Below are positions 1-9,634 of a DNA stretch of 64,000 nucleotides, piece by piece. Both the position numbers and the translations under genes were made by a program. Source of the DNA: Myxococcales bacterium (lineage in GTDB: Bacteria > Myxococcota_A > Polyangia > Polyangiales > Polyangiaceae); NCBI GenBank assembly GCA_947473045.1, contig CANJCO010000017.1:1-64000 (forward strand), written 5' to 3'. The notes under the pieces were generated by a model. The model was not told the origin of the DNA and did not search any database. It worked only from the letters and a program-made list of their open reading frames with translations. Position 1 is the stretch's first letter. The number at the start of each line of letters is the position of its first letter.

Positions 1-672
1 GGCGTGCCGGGCGCCCTGCACGCGACCGCGCAGCTCGTCGACGTCGCCCCGACGATGGACGCGAAGATGTACGCGGCCGCTCAAGTGTTCGACGAAGCTC
101 GGCACCTGGAGGCCTACGACCGCTACCTGCGCGAAAAGATCGAGCTGGTGTATCCGGTCAGCCCGCACCTCAAGCAGCTGCTCGATACCTTGCTCCAGGA
201 CTCCCGCCCCGACTTCAAGTTTCTCGGAATGCAGATCATGGTCGAAGGCGTGGCGCTCGCCGCGTTCGGCCTGATTCAGCAGCTGTCGACCGAGACGCTC
301 ATCAAGCAAATCACGCAGATGATCATGCAGGACGAGTCGCGCCACGTGGCGTTCGGCGTGCTGTCGCTCAAGGACACCTACCGGCAGATGGCCCCGAACG
401 AGCTGCGCGACCGCGAAGACTTCATCATCGAGTCGTCGAAGCTGCTGCGCGATCGCTTTCTCGCGCAAGAGGTCTGGGAGCGCATGGGGCTGCCGCAGCA
501 GGCGTGCCAGGAAGCCGTCGAAGCGAGCGAGGCGATGGCAATATTTCGCAGGCTGCTTTTTTCGAAGATCGTGCCGAACACCAAGCGACTCGGGCTGCTC
601 ACGCCGTATGTGCGCAAGGGCTTCGAGGAGCTCGGCGTGATTGAGTTCGAGCACCTGCCCGCGACCGCATGA
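1..672 (+). CDS. Ferritin-like diiron domain protein (5' end outside window)
   Basis: The reading frame is open from the window edge, so the N-terminus is missing. Counting from the codon at position 4, diiron-type ligands are visible as an E-x2-H pair (E31, H34 in DEARH), a Glu on the next helix (E81 in VEG) and a second E-x2-H pair (E111, H114 in DESRH). This is the helix 2-3-4 pattern of ribonucleotide-reductase-like or AurF-like diiron oxidases; the helix 1 Glu must lie upstream. The family couples O2 activation to oxidation of a substrate or metal; the substrate here is unknown. The stop overlaps the following TetR start (ATGA), so the two are co-transcribed. A Rieske protein follows. 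Confidence 0.7.
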   Translation, partial: GVPGALHATAQLVDVAPTMDAKMYAAAQVFDEARHLEAYDRYLREKIELVYPVSPHLKQLLDTLLQDSRPDFKFLGMQIMVEGVALAAFGLIQQLSTETLIKQITQMIMQDESRHVAFGVLSLKDTYRQMAPNELRDREDFIIESSKLLRDRFLAQEVWERMGLPQQACQEAVEASEAMAIFRRLLFSKIVPNTKRLGLLTPYVRKGFEELGVIEFEHLPATA

Positions 673-1409
673 GCGAGGCGCGCGAGGCGGGCGGCTCCCG
701 TGTAATGTCAGAGGCAATGACGGCGCGAACAGACAGCAAGGCGCCGCGTCCGCGCAACGCCGCTGACACGAAGAAGCGCATCCTCGACGCCGCGGAGGCC
801 GAGTTTGCGGCCAAGGGGTTCGACGGAACGCGCCTCGGCAACATCGCGCGAACCGCGGGCGTGCAGCAGGCGCTCATTCACCACTACTTCGACGACAAGT
901 CGGGGCTCTACCGCGAGACCGTCGACCGGGCGCTCGGGGCGATGAGCACCGAAGGGTGGGACATTCTCGCGCGTACGGTGTCGGCGGTGGGCAAGAGCTC
1001 GCGCAGCAAACCCGCGCAGAAGCTCGACAAGAAGAATGTGCGTCCGCTCGTCGAGGCGTTCATCGAGCTGCTGCAGCGCTTTTTTACCGAGCACGGGCAC
1101 ATCCTCGCGATCGTTCGGCACGAAGCGTCGAGCGGCTCCGAGCTCGCCCGGGACATCGTGCGCACGCGGGTCAAGCCCGTGGTCGATGCGATCACCGCGT
1201 ACCTCGACGCGCTCAAAGGCTCGGGCGACGTGCGCGGCGACGTTGACGTTCGTCAGCTCGCCATCGCAGCGATGGGCATGGTGGCGTTCCCGCTGATGGA
1301 GCACGGACTGACGCGCTGGGTGTGGCCCATCGAGCCGCGCGACAAGTCGTTTCTCGACGGCGCGCGCGCCGAGATCGTCGAGACCCTGCTCGCGCGAATG
1401 CTGCCGTAG
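669..1409 (+). CDS. TetR/AcrR family transcriptional regulator
   Basis: The N-terminal region has the TetR helix-turn-helix pattern: GTRLGNIARTAGV then ALIHHYFDDKSGLY, the usual second helix, turn and recognition helix with the HHYF/YYHF-type signature. The remaining ~150 residues are a helical ligand-binding and dimer domain with no recognisable ligand. The first ATG (669) overlaps the previous stop by ATGA; in-frame ATGs at 705 and 717 are alternatives and leave the HTH intact. Overlap with the diiron gene suggests it controls its own operon, possibly including the Rieske gene 73 bp downstream (inference). Confidence 0.85.
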   Translation: MSEAREAGGSRVMSEAMTARTDSKAPRPRNAADTKKRILDAAEAEFAAKGFDGTRLGNIARTAGVQQALIHHYFDDKSGLYRETVDRALGAMSTEGWDILARTVSAVGKSSRSKPAQKLDKKNVRPLVEAFIELLQRFFTEHGHILAIVRHEASSGSELARDIVRTRVKPVVDAITAYLDALKGSGDVRGDVDVRQLAIAAMGMVAFPLMEHGLTRWVWPIEPRDKSFLDGARAEIVETLLARMLP

Positions 1410-1482: not shown

Positions 1483-3237
1483 ATGAAGCACGACTTTTTT
1501 GACCTCGGACCCGCGAGCGACTTTCCCGCCGGTGCGCCGGTGCTGCGCAAGGGCCCGGGCGGCCTTCGCTTCGCCTGCGTGCGCGAGGGCGAAGCGGTGC
1601 ACGCGGTCGACGATCGCTGCCCGCATCAGGGCTATCCGCTGTCTCAAGGCGAAGTCCGCGGCGGCGTGCTCACGTGCCGCTGGCACAACTGGAAGTTCGA
1701 GCTCGCGAGCGGCGCCTGCACGTTCGGCGGAGAGCCCGTGCGGCGCTACGCAACGCGCATCGAAGACGGTCGCGTCCGGCTCGACCTCGCCCTCGATCGC
1801 GGCGCGGAGGTTCGGAGGCTCGTGGCGAGCCTGAAAGCCGCGCAACGCCGCGATGAGACGGCCCGCGCGCTGCGCGACGGCCTGCGCCTCGGCGACCTCG
1901 GGCTGCCTCGCGGTGACGAGGAGCGTGCCGGACTCGGCAAGCTCGCCACGGCGTTCGAGGTTGTCGCGATCGACGGCGCCGAGCGGGCGAGCGAAGGCTT
2001 CGATCATGGTCTGGCCGTGCTCGCCGACCTCTGCGCGTGGGCCGATCGCGGCCTGATCAAGCCAGAAGAGGCGTTCGTGCTCGGCGCCCACGCCATCGCG
2101 GCGGAGAGCCTCAACCTCGGGGTGCGCGGAGCGCCGACGCCCGGCGCTCGCGTGAGTCCCGCGACCTCGTTCGCGCGCCTGGCCGATCTCGAGGGCAAGG
2201 ATCTCGAGCCGGTGAGAGACGCCCTCGTTGCGGAGCGCCGCGAGGAGGCTGAAGCGATGGTGCGCGCGATCGTGGAGTCGCGCGGCATCGACGCCGCGAC
2301 CGACGCGCTGCTGCCCTTCGTCGCGGAGCACCTTTACGACCGCGGTCACGGCGCCATCTTCGTCGCCAAGGCGCTGGAGCTCTCGCGGCGCTTTCCGCTG
2401 GCGGCGATCGAAGTCTTCGCGGCCGTCACGGTAACCCTCGCATGGGCCACCGCCGATACCGCGCTGCCGCCGTTTTCTGCCACGCGCAGGGCGCTCGAGC
2501 AGACTGCAGACCTGCCGCTCGGCGCCGGACCGCTCGTCGATCGCGACGCGTATGAGCTCGCGGTGCTCGCGGGCGAGTCCGAGGCGGTAACAGCGACCGT
2601 CGCGCGGCTCGCGTCGGGCACCGATCCGGCGGCGCTGCTGCGCGCGGTCGGGCGCGCGGCCGCCGTACGCCTTCTGCGCTTCGACGCGGCGTGGGAGTCG
2701 CGAACCGACGCCGCCGTGACCGTGCTCGACGTCTCGCACGCGGTCACCTTCGCCGAGGCGGCCATCGCGCTCACCAGCGCACGGCCCGAGCGCGCCCGCA
2801 TCGCCGCGCGGCTCGCAGTGCAGGCCGCTGGCTTCGCGGGCAAGCTCCGACGCGGCGACGCGCCATCCGCACAGGCCGCGCCGTTGGCCCGAGCTGGGCA
2901 ACAATCGCTGCTTGAAGCTGCAAGCGCCCGCGACGTGGCGCAGGCCCTCGCCGTGGTGACGGGACTCGGGCGCGACGAGCGCGCGGCGAGCTACGACGCG
3001 CTGGCCCCTTTCGCCGCTTTCGACGCAGCCACCCTGCCGATATTTTACGCGCACGCGATCAAGGTGAGCGAGGCGCTGCGCCGGCTCGACGCGGCCGACG
3101 ACGCGGCCGACGACACTTACTTGCGTGCGCTGGTCGCGTACCTCGTGCCCGTCCGACCCGAGCGCCATTGGCGCCGCACCGCCGCCATCGCCGCGCAGTT
3201 TTTAAGCGACGGCCGTCCGCCAAAAGGCCTCTACTGA
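1483..3237 (+). CDS. Rieske [2Fe-2S] domain protein with large uncharacterised helical C-terminal region
   Basis: The first ~105 residues form a Rieske domain: C46-P-H48 in RCPHQG and C65-x2-H68 in CRWHNW supply the two Cys and two His ligands of the cluster. The remaining ~470 residues are Ala/Leu/Arg-rich and predominantly helical; I do not recognise a family with certainty. Short islands such as YDRGHGAIF, DVSHAVTFAEAA and FYAHAIKVSEA contain His residues, but no known motif is matched. Typical Rieske ferredoxins are ~110 residues and ring-hydroxylating oxygenase alpha subunits carry a different C-terminal fold, so this is a distinct fusion. The neighbouring diiron protein and TetR suggest a redox unit (inference). 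Confidence 0.75.
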   Translation: MKHDFFDLGPASDFPAGAPVLRKGPGGLRFACVREGEAVHAVDDRCPHQGYPLSQGEVRGGVLTCRWHNWKFELASGACTFGGEPVRRYATRIEDGRVRLDLALDRGAEVRRLVASLKAAQRRDETARALRDGLRLGDLGLPRGDEERAGLGKLATAFEVVAIDGAERASEGFDHGLAVLADLCAWADRGLIKPEEAFVLGAHAIAAESLNLGVRGAPTPGARVSPATSFARLADLEGKDLEPVRDALVAERREEAEAMVRAIVESRGIDAATDALLPFVAEHLYDRGHGAIFVAKALELSRRFPLAAIEVFAAVTVTLAWATADTALPPFSATRRALEQTADLPLGAGPLVDRDAYELAVLAGESEAVTATVARLASGTDPAALLRAVGRAAAVRLLRFDAAWESRTDAAVTVLDVSHAVTFAEAAIALTSARPERARIAARLAVQAAGFAGKLRRGDAPSAQAAPLARAGQQSLLEAASARDVAQALAVVTGLGRDERAASYDALAPFAAFDAATLPIFYAHAIKVSEALRRLDAADDAADDTYLRALVAYLVPVRPERHWRRTAAIAAQFLSDGRPPKGLY

Positions 3238-4986: not shown

Positions 4987-5739
4987 ATGATCGACGCAGC
5001 GCTCCTCGAAGACGTCGATCTGTTGTCCCTCGACGCCGGCAACACGGTCATTTTTCTCGATCACGAGCGGCTCGCCCGACTTGCCCGCGATGCCGGTTTT
5101 CCCGGCGTCACGCGCGAGCGCCTGATCGCGACCGAAGGCGAAGCCAAGCGGCTGGCCTCCGATGCCACACAGATGGTCGATCCTGCGTGGCCCGAGCGCG
5201 ACGGCCCGGGGGCAGCCGCATGGGGGCGCATGGTCGCGACGATGCTGGCGCGCGCCAACGTTGCGGAGAGCGCGCTCCCATCGCTGATTTCAGCCATTTG
5301 GAAGAGCCACGTCGATCACAACCTGTGGTCGCTCGTGCCCGAAGGCTTCGCCGACGCGATCGCTCGCGTGCGCAGCGCGGGCGTCAAGACGGTGATCGTA
5401 TCGAACTCAGAAGGCATGCTCGACCGGCTATTTCACAAGCTCGGAATCGACGCGTGCTTCGACGCGGTCATCGACAGCGGCCGCGTGGGGCACGAAAAAC
5501 CCGGCGCACGCATTTTTGAGCTCGCCTGCGAGGCCGCGGGCACGACGGCGGCTCGGGGGCTGCACCTCGGAGACACCTTCGCGACCGACGTGCTCGGCGC
5601 CCGTAACGCCGGCATGCGCACAGCGCTCATCGATCCCTACGGTCACTATGAGGGCCTGTACGCCGATGTGCCGCGCGCGGAGGGCGTCGTCGCCGTGGCC
5701 CTCGCGCTCGCGGCCCGCGGGCGCGTCACGCGTCGCTGA
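4987..5739 (+). CDS. HAD-superfamily hydrolase (haloacid dehalogenase-like phosphatase)
   Basis: The 250 residues contain all four HAD motifs: LDAGNTV (nucleophile Asp, in the DAxGT form of dehalogenase/HDHD3-like members), VIVSNSEG (motif II), the Lys in GHEKPG (motif III) and HLGDTFATDVLGA (motif IV acidic pair). A helical cap lies between motifs I and II. The substrate cannot be told from sequence. The 3' end overlaps the convergent kinase gene by 14 bp (5726-5739). Confidence 0.85.
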   Translation: MIDAALLEDVDLLSLDAGNTVIFLDHERLARLARDAGFPGVTRERLIATEGEAKRLASDATQMVDPAWPERDGPGAAAWGRMVATMLARANVAESALPSLISAIWKSHVDHNLWSLVPEGFADAIARVRSAGVKTVIVSNSEGMLDRLFHKLGIDACFDAVIDSGRVGHEKPGARIFELACEAAGTTAARGLHLGDTFATDVLGARNAGMRTALIDPYGHYEGLYADVPRAEGVVAVALALAARGRVTRR

Positions 5740-8700
5740 GCCACTGCCGCGCGAGCGCGACAATCGCCGCGTTCTCGGCGTTTTGCTCAAGATAACTGCG
5801 ACGCCAGCGACCGTCGCCGATCAGCGAGGCCCTCGACAGCACGACCTCGCGCGCCTTGCGGATCGCGGCGTGCGCGGCGCCAACATCGCCCAGATCCATC
5901 AGCACTTGCGCGAAGGCCAGTCGCGCCTGCTCTTCGCCCTCCTCGACAATCGCTGCGGCCTCGAGCACCCCGATCGCGTCGGTTGCGACGTCGAGCGCCT
6001 CGCCCACGCGCCCCTGCTCGCGGAGCGCGTGCGAGAGCGTCGCCGAGGCGTAGACGTACGCCGAAGCGTGCGCCGCGAGCTCGGGTCGAACCGCCCGCGC
6101 CAGCTCCTCAGCCCCCGCCCAGTCGCCCGCGAGCCTCGCGATCTCGGCGGCGTACAGCTGAGACCAGAGGGTCATCAGACGCACGCCCAGCCCCTCAGAC
6201 GTCGCGATCGACAGGGAGATGAACGCGCGGGCACCGTCAAAGTCGCCAGCGCGGGCGAGCGCGAGCGCGAGGTTCTGCGCGGCCCCGGCTGCGTAATGAA
6301 CAAGCCCCATGCGCTGCGCCTCCTCGTACGCCCCGCGAAGCACACCGGCGGCGCTCCCGTCGCCAAGGCGCGTAAGCGCGTAGCCGAGATTCACGCGCTC
6401 GCGAACGATCTCCCGCAAATCGCCCGATTGTTCGAACGCGGCGATCGCCTGCGAAAAACTCTCCGCGGCGGCGCCAAAATCGGAGCGATCGTGAATCTGA
6501 AAAATTCCGTCAACGAACGCGGCGTAGCCGCGCAGCGTCGGGGCGTGCGCCGCGTGCTTGTGAACGAGCGGTTCGACGAGGTCACGCAGTCGCCACGCCT
6601 GGTCGCGTGCGGCTCCCCGCATCAGCGAGCTCGCCGTGCGCAAGATGACCACCGCCAGCGCGGCGCTCGCGTCTTTGCGATCGTGAAACGCGTCGCAAAC
6701 GTCGTCAATCCACGCGACCGCCGAAGGAAGATCGTCGACGTGGACGCTCGCCACGACGGCCTGCGAAGCCAGCGCGATCCACGAGTCGCTGCCCCGCTGC
6801 GCGTGCTGCAGCCCGAGCAACGCCGACTCGCGCACCGCGTGGTACTTTCCCTTCGCCGCCCAGGACTCGATCATCAGCACGTGCAAGTGCGCGAGCTCCT
6901 CTCCGCGAGCCCCGCACGCGACGCCCCGGCGGCCGCGGTCGATGACGGCGTCGAAGTCGGCGCCGGCGAGGGCGTCCTCGGCCGCACGCGCCCACCACGC
7001 GATCGCCTCGGCCATCGCGCCGCCGCGCTCGAGATGCTCGGCGAGCACCCGCGCGTCCGTCTCGCCGTGCTCCAGCAGCCAGTCTGCCGCGAGACCGTGA
7101 CCGAGCGCCCGGTCCTGATCGGTCAGGGAAGCGTAGGCCGCCTCGCGGGTGAGGGCGCTCGAGAACGTGAGCTGCTCGTGCCCGACGAAGCGCGCGTCGT
7201 AGCTCGGGGTGAGCAACTCGAGGGCCACGAGCTCGGAGATCGCGGGCAGCACATCGGCCGGGTCCGGCAGCCCGAGCAGAACCCCCACACCGTCGACCCA
7301 GAGCGTCTGCCCGAAGACGCTCGCCGCACGCAGCGTGCGTCGCAGCTCGCTCGGAAGCGCCTCGAGGCGCGCCTGCACCATCGCCACGACGGTGTCGGGA
7401 AACGCGAGCGTCGGCGAGGTCGCGCTCGCGCGAATCATCTCCTCAAGAAAAAAAGCGTTCCCCGCCGCGCGCGAGACCAGGGAGGCGACGCGATCGGGCG
7501 GCGCGCCGTCGCCCAGAAGCGACCACGCGATGCGCTCGGCCACCTTTTTCGGGAGCGGCGCGAGGCTCACGCGCTCGACCGATCGCTGCGCCCATAGATT
7601 CGGAAAGAGCTCGAATACCTCCGGCCTCGCGAAGGCCAGCACCGCGAGCGGCCGCTCGGCCAGGTTTCGAAGCGCCGCGTCGAGCGCGTTGACCGTGGGA
7701 AGGTCGCCCCACTGCAGGTCTTCGATGACCACGAGCACCGGATGCTCCGCGAGCTCGGCCTCGAGGAAGTCCTCGAACGCGCGGCGGATCTGATCGCCCA
7801 TCGTGACGGGGTTGGCGCGCGCGGCGCGAAGCTCGACCGACACGTTCGCCGCGGCGGTCGGCGCCCCCACGATCTCGCCAAGAAAAGCCGCGATTCGCGC
7901 GGTTTTTGTGTCGGTGATGCTCTCGCCGATGCGGCTCTTCAACGACGCCGACCGCGCCTCGAGCGTCTCGCCGTCGCGCAGCCGCGCCGCGCGCTTCACC
8001 ATCTGGGCGAGCAGCCCGAACGGCGAGCCGACGCTCATCGGATCGCCTCGGGCGAGCAGGATTTTCGCCGTCGGGCGCCGGGCGCGAACCGCGGCGAGCA
8101 CCTCGGAGCCAAGCCGCGATTTGCCGAGGCCCGCCGGCGCCGTGACCAGCGCCACCTGGGCGCGCGACTCATCGAACGCAGCGTCGACCAGCCCGCCCAG
8201 CGTCGAAAGCTCGAGGTCACGACCGAAAAATCGCGTGGCCTTTCCGAGGACCGTGCGCGACGCGTCTTCTCCCGATCGCTGCGCGCGAAGCAGGGTCAAG
8301 GGCCCGGTGCGCACGACCTCGAAGCGCGCCTCCACGAGGCACGCGGTGACCTCGTCAATCGCAACGTACGAAGCGCTGGCGTGGCGCGGGTCCTGCGACA
8401 CGTCGCGGAGCATGGCCGCGGCGCGGGAGAACACGTCACCGCCTTCGCCGTCGCTCGCCGATCCGTCGTGCGCGAACACGCCGCTGCCGGTAACGAGCGC
8501 GATCGCGGCGCCGCTGAGCACCGCGCGGAGACCGAGCGCGCAGCTTGCCGCGCGCATTGACAGCTCGGCCGCGCCGCCGCGGTTGGCGAGGGCCACCACC
8601 AGCGATCCATCGGCGAGCAGGTCGGCGCGTGCGTCGAACGGCTCGACCTGGCGCCGAACGCGCTCCAGCTGCGCCTGGGCGAGTGCGCTGACGACGCCTT

Positions 8701-9634
8701 CGAACGACAGCGGTGGAAGCCGAACGTCTGCGACGATGATCGAACGCAGCCGCAGCTCATCGTGGGTGAGACCCGCGCGCAGAACCAATGGGTCGATCGC
8801 GTGCGCTGCAGAGTGCTCCGACACCTCGATTTTTCGGAGTCGATCGGCCACCTCACGACCGTTGAGCGGCCGCATGTCACGATCTTTCGACAACATGTCT
8901 TCGACGAGCGCGTCGAGGTCGGACGCAACCCAGGGCACGAGCTCGCTGACCCTCGGCGCCTCTTCAAGCAGGATCTTCGTGAGCACCGAGAGCATGTCGG
9001 GGCCGGCGAACGGCACCGCGCCCGTCAGGCAACGAAACAGCACGCAGCCCAGAGAAAATACGTCCGCGCGCGAATCGACCTCCGAGGCGCAGCGCGCCTG
9101 CTCGGGGGCCATGTAAGACGGCGTTCCCATCGCCCTGTGGGCCTGCGTCTGTTCGCTCGCGCGCAGCCGCACGAGGCCAAAGTCGATGAGCACGGGGTTT
9201 CGAATCTCGCCGCCGCTCAGCACGATGTTGCTCGGCTTGACGTCGCGATGCACGACGCCGTGCTCGTGGGCGTGGCCGAGCGCCTCGGCGATACCCATCA
9301 CCAGCTCGACCGACTCCGCGTGAGAGAGCGGCTGCCGCACGATGCGATCGGCCAGCGTCTCTCCGTCGACCCACGCCATCGCCACAAAGGGACGTCCGTC
9401 GTCTCCCAGCCCGTGCGCCACGTATCGGACAACGCCCGGGTCGATGAGCTCGGCCAGCACCTCGCCTTCCTTGGTCAGACGGAGCGCGGCGTTGTCGGTG
9501 TCGCCCAGCAGCACCTTGAGCGCGACGGTCTCGCCGGTCTGCCGGTCGAGCGCGCGGTAGACGGCGCCCATGCCGCCCTTCGCCGCGAGCTCAAGGAGCT
9601 CGAAGCGGCCCGCGACGACAGGATTGCCGCTCAT
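5726..9634 (-). CDS. Ser/Thr protein kinase fused to a degenerate cyclase-like domain, AAA-type ATPase and TPR region
   Basis: A 1,302-residue multidomain protein. Residues 10-270 are a complete Hanks-type kinase: glycine loop AKGGMGAVY, K40, HRD 129-131, DFG 151-153, APE 176-178. Residues ~295-455 follow the outline of a class III nucleotidyl cyclase (IIVADV, then ADGSLVVAL, ALVTGSGVFA) but lack recognisable metal-binding Asp residues. A STAND/AAA-type NTPase follows, with Walker A APAGLGKS (K505) and Walker B VLVVIEDLQW. The C-terminal ~500 residues are helical repeats of TPR type. This layout is common in myxobacterial kinases and in AfsR/MalT-like regulators. It is soluble, with no membrane segment seen. 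The signal and targets are unknown. It is divergent from the dehydrogenase gene. Confidence 0.88.
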   Translation of the reverse strand: MSGNPVVAGRFELLELAAKGGMGAVYRALDRQTGETVALKVLLGDTDNAALRLTKEGEVLAELIDPGVVRYVAHGLGDDGRPFVAMAWVDGETLADRIVRQPLSHAESVELVMGIAEALGHAHEHGVVHRDVKPSNIVLSGGEIRNPVLIDFGLVRLRASEQTQAHRAMGTPSYMAPEQARCASEVDSRADVFSLGCVLFRCLTGAVPFAGPDMLSVLTKILLEEAPRVSELVPWVASDLDALVEDMLSKDRDMRPLNGREVADRLRKIEVSEHSAAHAIDPLVLRAGLTHDELRLRSIIVADVRLPPLSFEGVVSALAQAQLERVRRQVEPFDARADLLADGSLVVALANRGGAAELSMRAASCALGLRAVLSGAAIALVTGSGVFAHDGSASDGEGGDVFSRAAAMLRDVSQDPRHASASYVAIDEVTACLVEARFEVVRTGPLTLLRAQRSGEDASRTVLGKATRFFGRDLELSTLGGLVDAAFDESRAQVALVTAPAGLGKSRLGSEVLAAVRARRPTAKILLARGDPMSVGSPFGLLAQMVKRAARLRDGETLEARSASLKSRIGESITDTKTARIAAFLGEIVGAPTAAANVSVELRAARANPVTMGDQIRRAFEDFLEAELAEHPVLVVIEDLQWGDLPTVNALDAALRNLAERPLAVLAFARPEVFELFPNLWAQRSVERVSLAPLPKKVAERIAWSLLGDGAPPDRVASLVSRAAGNAFFLEEMIRASATSPTLAFPDTVVAMVQARLEALPSELRRTLRAASVFGQTLWVDGVGVLLGLPDPADVLPAISELVALELLTPSYDARFVGHEQLTFSSALTREAAYASLTDQDRALGHGLAADWLLEHGETDARVLAEHLERGGAMAEAIAWWARAAEDALAGADFDAVIDRGRRGVACGARGEELAHLHVLMIESWAAKGKYHAVRESALLGLQHAQRGSDSWIALASQAVVASVHVDDLPSAVAWIDDVCDAFHDRKDASAALAVVILRTASSLMRGAARDQAWRLRDLVEPLVHKHAAHAPTLRGYAAFVDGIFQIHDRSDFGAAAESFSQAIAAFEQSGDLREIVRERVNLGYALTRLGDGSAAGVLRGAYEEAQRMGLVHYAAGAAQNLALALARAGDFDGARAFISLSIATSEGLGVRLMTLWSQLYAAEIARLAGDWAGAEELARAVRPELAAHASAYVYASATLSHALREQGRVGEALDVATDAIGVLEAAAIVEEGEEQARLAFAQVLMDLGDVGAAHAAIRKAREVVLSRASLIGDGRWRRSYLEQNAENAAIVALARQWLSDA

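Follow-up and report, generated by a model that had tools for sequence, protein, structure and literature searches.

Rieske oxygenases are regarded as a single architecture; the classical ring-hydroxylating enzymes of this type have a 2-His-1-carboxylate ligand set. The questin-oxidase-type dioxygenases, which are ring-opening iron enzymes, are treated as single-domain proteins and are best known from fungi. BTG13, the questin oxidase of Cercospora sp. JNU001 (PDB 7y3w, 7y3x and 7y3y), is a protein of ~440 residues without a Rieske domain, and its iron site is reportedly made up of four His and a carboxylated Lys (K377). The hydroquinone dioxygenase PaD (8z4q, 8z4r) and an AflY-type non-haem iron dioxygenase from Aspergillus brunneoviolaceus (8yxs) are single-domain enzymes without Rieske as well, and the Rieske domain is also absent from the bacterial PF14027 (Questin_oxidase) proteins.

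The window analysed here, a stretch of 64,000 nucleotides that forms the first part of an 88 kb contig from a Myxococcales bacterium, carries a gene, present as one copy in its genome, in which features of both groups meet. As in phthalate dioxygenase and dicamba monooxygenase, a fused Rieske domain is proposed to feed a mononuclear iron; unlike in these Rieske ring-hydroxylating oxygenases, the partner domain has another fold, being all-helical with four His and one Lys as candidate ligands. The chain looks like a cross of the two groups, neither a PF14027 protein by the Pfam model nor a classical Rieske oxygenase by fold. We read it as a putative Rieske-wired, 4-His/Lys non-haem iron oxygenase of questin-oxidase fold, and give this reading a probability of roughly 0.7. 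It is supported by the fusion itself, by the predicted fold, by the invariance and register of specific residues, and by a tendency of the Rieske domain and the metal motif to be lost together.

The Gene and Its Rieske Domain

The open reading frame encodes a product of 584 aa, as had been noted from the letters of the DNA (Table 1). Residues 8–80 match the Pfam Rieske model PF00355 at 2.1e-13, and residues 2–103 of the AlphaFold2 (AF2) model superimpose on the naphthalene dioxygenase ferredoxin 2qpz with a VIA-align Z of 19.0 (rmsd 1.0 over 101 residues). The CxH...CxxH ligands C46, H48, C65 and H68 are intact, and the N-terminal 2Fe-2S domain is complete, as stated in the sequence-only reading. 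The protein is not a stand-alone Rieske ferredoxin, a single domain of ~100 residues, as its 584-residue chain contains a conserved second domain.

Table 1. Features of the Rieske gene and its surroundings, in window coordinates
Feature	Position	Strand	Basis
Truncated ORF at contig start, overlaps TetR start	1–672		Weak AurF / ribonucleotide reductase small chain diiron match, below cut-off
TetR-type regulator directly upstream of Rieske gene	669–1409	+	PF00440, 7.4e-14
Whole gene, Rieske plus questin-oxidase-like domain	1483–3237	+	ORF (ATG at 1483, stop ending 3237), homologues, AF2 model
Rieske [2Fe-2S] ferredoxin-like domain, residues 1–103	1483–1791	+	PF00355; structural match to 2qpz
Rieske ligand stretch C46-x-H48 ... 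C65-x-x-H68	1618–1686	+	Invariant, 61/61 rows
All-helical C-terminal domain, residues 105–584; predicted questin-oxidase fold ~143–570	1795–3234	+	AF2 models, structure comparison
H175, candidate metal ligand 1 (GFDHG)	2005–2007	+	61/61; in global hhalign, register with NH of the PF14027 proteins
H289, candidate metal ligand 2 (GHGAI)	2347–2349	+	61/61; register with THGxIR His of PF14027 set
H419-x-x-T422, candidate metal ligand 3 and conserved Thr	2737–2748	+	61/61; BTG13 H296-x-x-T299
H524-x-x-K527, candidate metal ligands 4 and 5	3052–3063	+	61/61; BTG13 H374-x-x-K377
1302 aa ORF, by eye Ser/Thr kinase plus ATPase/TPR part	5726–9634	-	

Predicted Fold of the C-Terminal Domain

Sequence comparison says little about the remainder of the chain. 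Residues after ~104 gave no significant match in the Pfam or NCBIfam libraries, PF14027 was not reached over its cut-off by the window protein or by any of 31 family members tested, and PDB sequence searches with C-terminal profiles returned nothing relevant. The full-length AF2 model, calculated with a 60-row alignment (A3) as input, has a pLDDT of 92.8 and a pTM of 0.92; its strands of at least three residues are confined to residues 5–101, the remainder being helical. The C-terminus folded alone reaches a pLDDT of 91.4.

Comparison of these models with the PDB by VIA-align points to the questin-oxidase fold. Residues ~143–570 of the full-length model align with BTG13 7y3y at Z 20.4 over 338 residues (rmsd 4.4), followed by 7y3w (19.2), 7y3x (19.1), 8yxs (19.1) and PaD 8z4q (18.1). 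For the C-terminus alone, the top six chains are the same as for the full-length model and all of questin-oxidase type (Z 17.4–20.3, 325–338 residues), and the best unrelated match reaches Z 8.6 over 99 residues, leaving a gap. With the full-length model BTG13 scores Z 19.1–20.4 over 329–338 residues; 8yxs scores 19.1–19.2 across the two comparisons. Identity to BTG13 is 10–11%, and sequence search misses it. Foldseek, run with the C-terminus alone, ranks PaD first and second and the AflY-type 8yxs third (probabilities 1.00, 1.00 and 0.97, then 0.20 or less), with weak E-values of 2.7e-3 to 5.4e-2 and large rmsd. The predicted C-terminus has the fold of the questin oxidase/BTG13 structural superfamily over most of the domain.

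Residues ~227–327 locally resemble the C-terminal helical domain of MgsA/RarA (VIA Z 8.6, 99 residues), and an MgsA_C match occurs in two of 31 family members, the better at 1.8e-5. A search of a viral fold library gave a best E of only 0.19.

The chain shares with classical alpha subunits the N-terminal Rieske domain with CxH...CxxH, together with a similar proposed role, and might on these grounds be taken for a divergent ring-hydroxylating oxygenase alpha subunit of Rieske plus helix-grip domain. The C-terminal helix-grip catalytic domain is, however, missing: no strand of at least three residues follows residue 101 in the pLDDT 92.8 model, Rieske oxygenases align over residues ~1–109 only, and no catalytic-domain Pfam model is matched. 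The classical fold is rejected, in agreement with the sequence-only reading, and this explanation has next to no chance of being right.

That reading had also called the partner domain unknown, possibly oxygenase-like, and had left room for haem. The domain is not unknown, because its predicted fold matches the solved BTG13/PaD/AflY-type family of non-haem iron dioxygenases, and an oxygenase-like partner is plausible. Haem binding is rejected, as CxxCH is absent from the sequence and the enzymes matched by fold belong to a non-haem iron family. A non-enzymatic repeat fold lacking conserved ligands, named beforehand as what would count against that reading, is not supported, since unrelated helical folds reach Z 8.6 at most.

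Invariant Residues and Their Register with Questin Oxidases

Conservation was counted over 61 rows, comprising the window protein and 60 full-length loci with a Rieske domain. Thirteen C-terminal positions are invariant (R131, G172, H175, G288, H289, I292, P329, L415, H419, T422, F451, H524 and K527); K527 is the only invariant Lys of the C-terminus, four of the thirteen are His, and H283 is kept in 59 rows. One of the two seed patterns of the scan spanned H419 and T422, whose invariance is therefore partly a result of selection; H175, H289, H524 and K527 were unseeded. It had been suggested that the scattered His in RGHGAIF, SHAVTF and FYAHAI could bind a metal and that orthologues should be aligned for invariant residues. 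Each of these segments does hold an invariant His (H289, H419 and H524, respectively), and the alignment adds K527 and a fourth His, H175 in GFDHGL, that had not been named there. Judged from the alignment, H175, H289, H419, H524 and K527 could form the predicted metal site.

The relationship of these residues to those of known enzymes was probed with alignment A5, which comprises eight bacterial PF14027 proteins (L116, L117, L119–L123 and L125), all of which match PF14027. Comparison of the window family with A5 by hhalign gave scores of 31.8 (local) and 20.2 (global) with a probability of only ~10%; 40 column shuffles reached at most 18.6 and 7.05, and reversed rows 16.3 and 7.6. In the global register H175 falls on NH, H289 on THGxIR, H419/T422 on HxxT and H524/K527 on HxxK. 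The two families are thus in register at all four His as well as at the Thr and at the Lys. The window domain itself gives no PF14027 match. Searched against the PDB, the A5 profile finds PaD (1.6e-7), 8yxs (1.2e-3) and BTG13 (2.5e-3 to 4.7e-2). Positions counted from these alignments place the BTG13 residues at H55, H58, H159, H296-x-x-T299 and H374-x-x-K377, and the deposited BTG13 mutants H58F and T299V lie on or beside the counted motifs; whether H175 corresponds to H55 or H58 is ambiguous. The window family shows the H...H...HxxT...HxxK order of the questin oxidase/BTG13 superfamily, as found in BTG13 and, in the alignment, in PaD.

Joint Loss of the Rieske Domain and the Metal Motif

The coupling between the two domains was assessed in a set obtained by profile searches without His-motif seeds, the matches being aligned to the A3 profile. 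The Rieske ligands (CHCH) and the metal motif (HHHTHK) are both kept in all 49 full-length strong matches, which include the window gene and several genes already among the earlier loci. The site is altered or lost in 16 rows (14 from the unseeded searches, with L019 and L013 added), and 12 of these also lack a recognisable Rieske domain. Five fragment rows in the set derive from two genes (L151/L154 and L179), and L153, L183 and L193 lie outside the coupling table. The metal motif and the Rieske domain tend to be lost together, which is the usual pattern and not a strict one; because groups share descent, the counts are not independent events.

Four proteins keep the Rieske domain despite an altered or lost metal motif. 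In L018 (=L184) and L019 all six site positions are changed, while the other rows of alignment A1 keep them (11/11). L152 (940–2940) and L182 (1123–2910) retain the Rieske domain and part of the site: GH and the third-motif His are kept, the first His is lost, and the Lys reads Gln in L152 and is missing from L182 too. These two proteins possibly represent a natural reduced ligand set. L180 (1279–2847) has an N-terminus that is Rieske-like by eye but lacks the Cys/His loops, and changes are also present in its C-terminal ligands; this N-terminus looks like a vestigial Rieske domain, and both sites have decayed in one chain. Distant homologues of ~500 aa without Rieske or ligands (L181, L185–L192 and L194) come mostly from one family (f14) in the window's phylum.

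These data bear on the source of the electrons. Among solved structures, the nearest ones are single-domain enzymes that lack a Rieske domain, PaD is titled a hydroquinone dioxygenase, and the chemistry of BTG13 or PaD is reportedly proposed to draw electrons from a reduced (quinol) substrate. The window protein might accordingly be a questin-oxidase-type enzyme supplied by its quinol substrate, with a Rieske domain whose part is limited to priming or repairing the metal or to reducing a quinone substrate. We consider this unlikely, since the fusion of Rieske in 49/49 full-length strong matches with an intact site speaks for a constant requirement for electrons from outside.

The joint losses also speak against a role of the conserved residues in binding Zn, Mn or Cu, or in a hydrolase or isomerase, next to a Rieske domain with an independent role. 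A shared fold by itself does not show function, which leaves this explanation some room; two solved relatives are, however, titled non-haem iron dioxygenase and hydroquinone dioxygenase, respectively, and with the Rieske domain and the site mostly lost together it appears highly improbable. A Rieske-wired non-haem iron oxygenase remains the preferred reading.

Distribution and Genomic Neighbourhood

Full-length homologues at 57–61% identity (tblastn) occur in two other genomes of the window's family (L015, L016), and near full-length homologues were found in six other genomes among 39 related ones (L015–L020; E 1e-197 to 1e-37). A profile scan of one-per-species genomes returned 72 loci, of which 60 are full length with a Rieske domain. 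With these full-length homologues and the 72 loci of the wider scan, the gene is not a chance reading frame. Titles of the 72 loci name Myxococcota, Alpha- and Betaproteobacteria, Planctomycetota, Actinobacteria, Acidobacteria and SAR324; the nearest relative is from Minicystis rosea (73% identity over 529 columns), and the titles of the nearest rows name Polyangiaceae (Myxococcota). By profile search, 28 of 289 genomes in the class to which Tistlia consotensis belongs carry the C-terminal domain, as do 42 of 282 in the window's phylum, where divergent Rieske-less rows are included in the count. The distribution is patchy.

Twelve of the 72 loci fall outside the 61-row count, having an ORF below 480 aa or, in the frame called, no Rieske domain (L049, L069, L076, L077, L085, L088, L099, L104, L107, L108, L111 and L113). 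Their motifs are mostly kept where the stretch is present, in a shifted frame in L107 and L111; L069 (3400–4695) is a broken copy with two in-frame stops, its HxxK stretch gone. L075 was left out of A3 for an X in its translation. One contig labelled as a Bifidobacterium breve MAG (L114) encodes a protein identical to L012 (G096) of the window's phylum and is probably a mislabelled bin. Against plasmids, the window protein matched with its Rieske part alone, and as a lone query against genome contigs it led nowhere. No PF14027 proteins were matched in its own genome or in 14 family-holding genomes, which is no proof of their absence.

The immediate neighbours of the window gene are not shared. 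No homologues of its TetR, diiron-like and PyrD neighbours were found in the flanks of relatives, and the kinase query from the window matched flanks in nine loci, matches that are taken for common myxobacterial kinases. Clustering of ORFs around the 72 loci revealed one frequent neighbour, a SufR-like regulator of ~220 aa at 25 loci, mostly divergent and adjacent (L063, L065–L067, L073, L074, L078, L079, L086, L087, L092, L093, L097, L098, L101, L107, L111 and others). All eight neighbours tested match NCBIfam SufR (TIGR02702), with values of 2.2e-41 to 3.7e-26 that fall short of the curated cut-off, and the five-Cys cluster is kept in 23 or 24 of the 25, one row being truncated. This neighbour hints at regulation that responds to Fe-S or redox status. 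No reductase gene was recognised as a conserved neighbour among the few neighbours compared with family libraries.

The SufR-like regulator beside 25/72 loci would also suit a redox or iron sensor, in which the Rieske cluster and the metal site sense O2, NO or iron and act with that regulator. The chain has no output domain, however, its fold is that of an enzyme, and the window gene has a TetR neighbour in place of SufR. A sensor is consequently very unlikely.

Proposed Mechanism

As a Rieske-wired oxygenase, the protein would function as follows. First, a separate NAD(P)H-dependent reductase would deliver electrons to the N-terminal Rieske [2Fe-2S] cluster. From the cluster they would move on, within the same chain, to a mononuclear metal centre of the helical C-terminal domain. 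This metal, most likely Fe(II), would be held by H175, H289, H419, H524 and K527; K527 is probably carboxylated, by analogy to K377 of BTG13. The reduced metal would then activate O2, the presumed oxidant. Finally, the activated O2 would oxygenate or cleave an electron-rich substrate, probably phenolic or quinol. The binding of a metal, its identity as iron, the electron path through the Rieske cluster, O2 as the oxidant, the carboxylated Lys and the substrate class are inferred.

Implications

On balance, we lean modestly towards these proteins forming another class of Rieske non-haem iron oxygenase that evolved independently of the classical one, with an all-helical 4-His/(carboxylated) Lys site, present in Myxococcota, Pseudomonadota, Planctomycetota, Actinomycetota and others and accompanied in many lineages by a SufR-like neighbour. 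The open-licence literature searched yielded no description of the BTG13 metal site and no description of a Rieske and questin-oxidase-like fusion, which does not prove that none exists. If the family is what it appears to be, a large group of Rieske proteins left half-annotated by Pfam would gain a function, and the question of the electron source in the questin-oxidase fold would become directly approachable through removal of the Rieske domain, with the natural altered-site variants as ready controls. Furthermore, a widespread bacterial family joining the two architectures would suggest more than one origin of Rieske-to-iron wiring, and that nature may have a second means of connecting a Rieske cluster to a metal site that activates oxygen.
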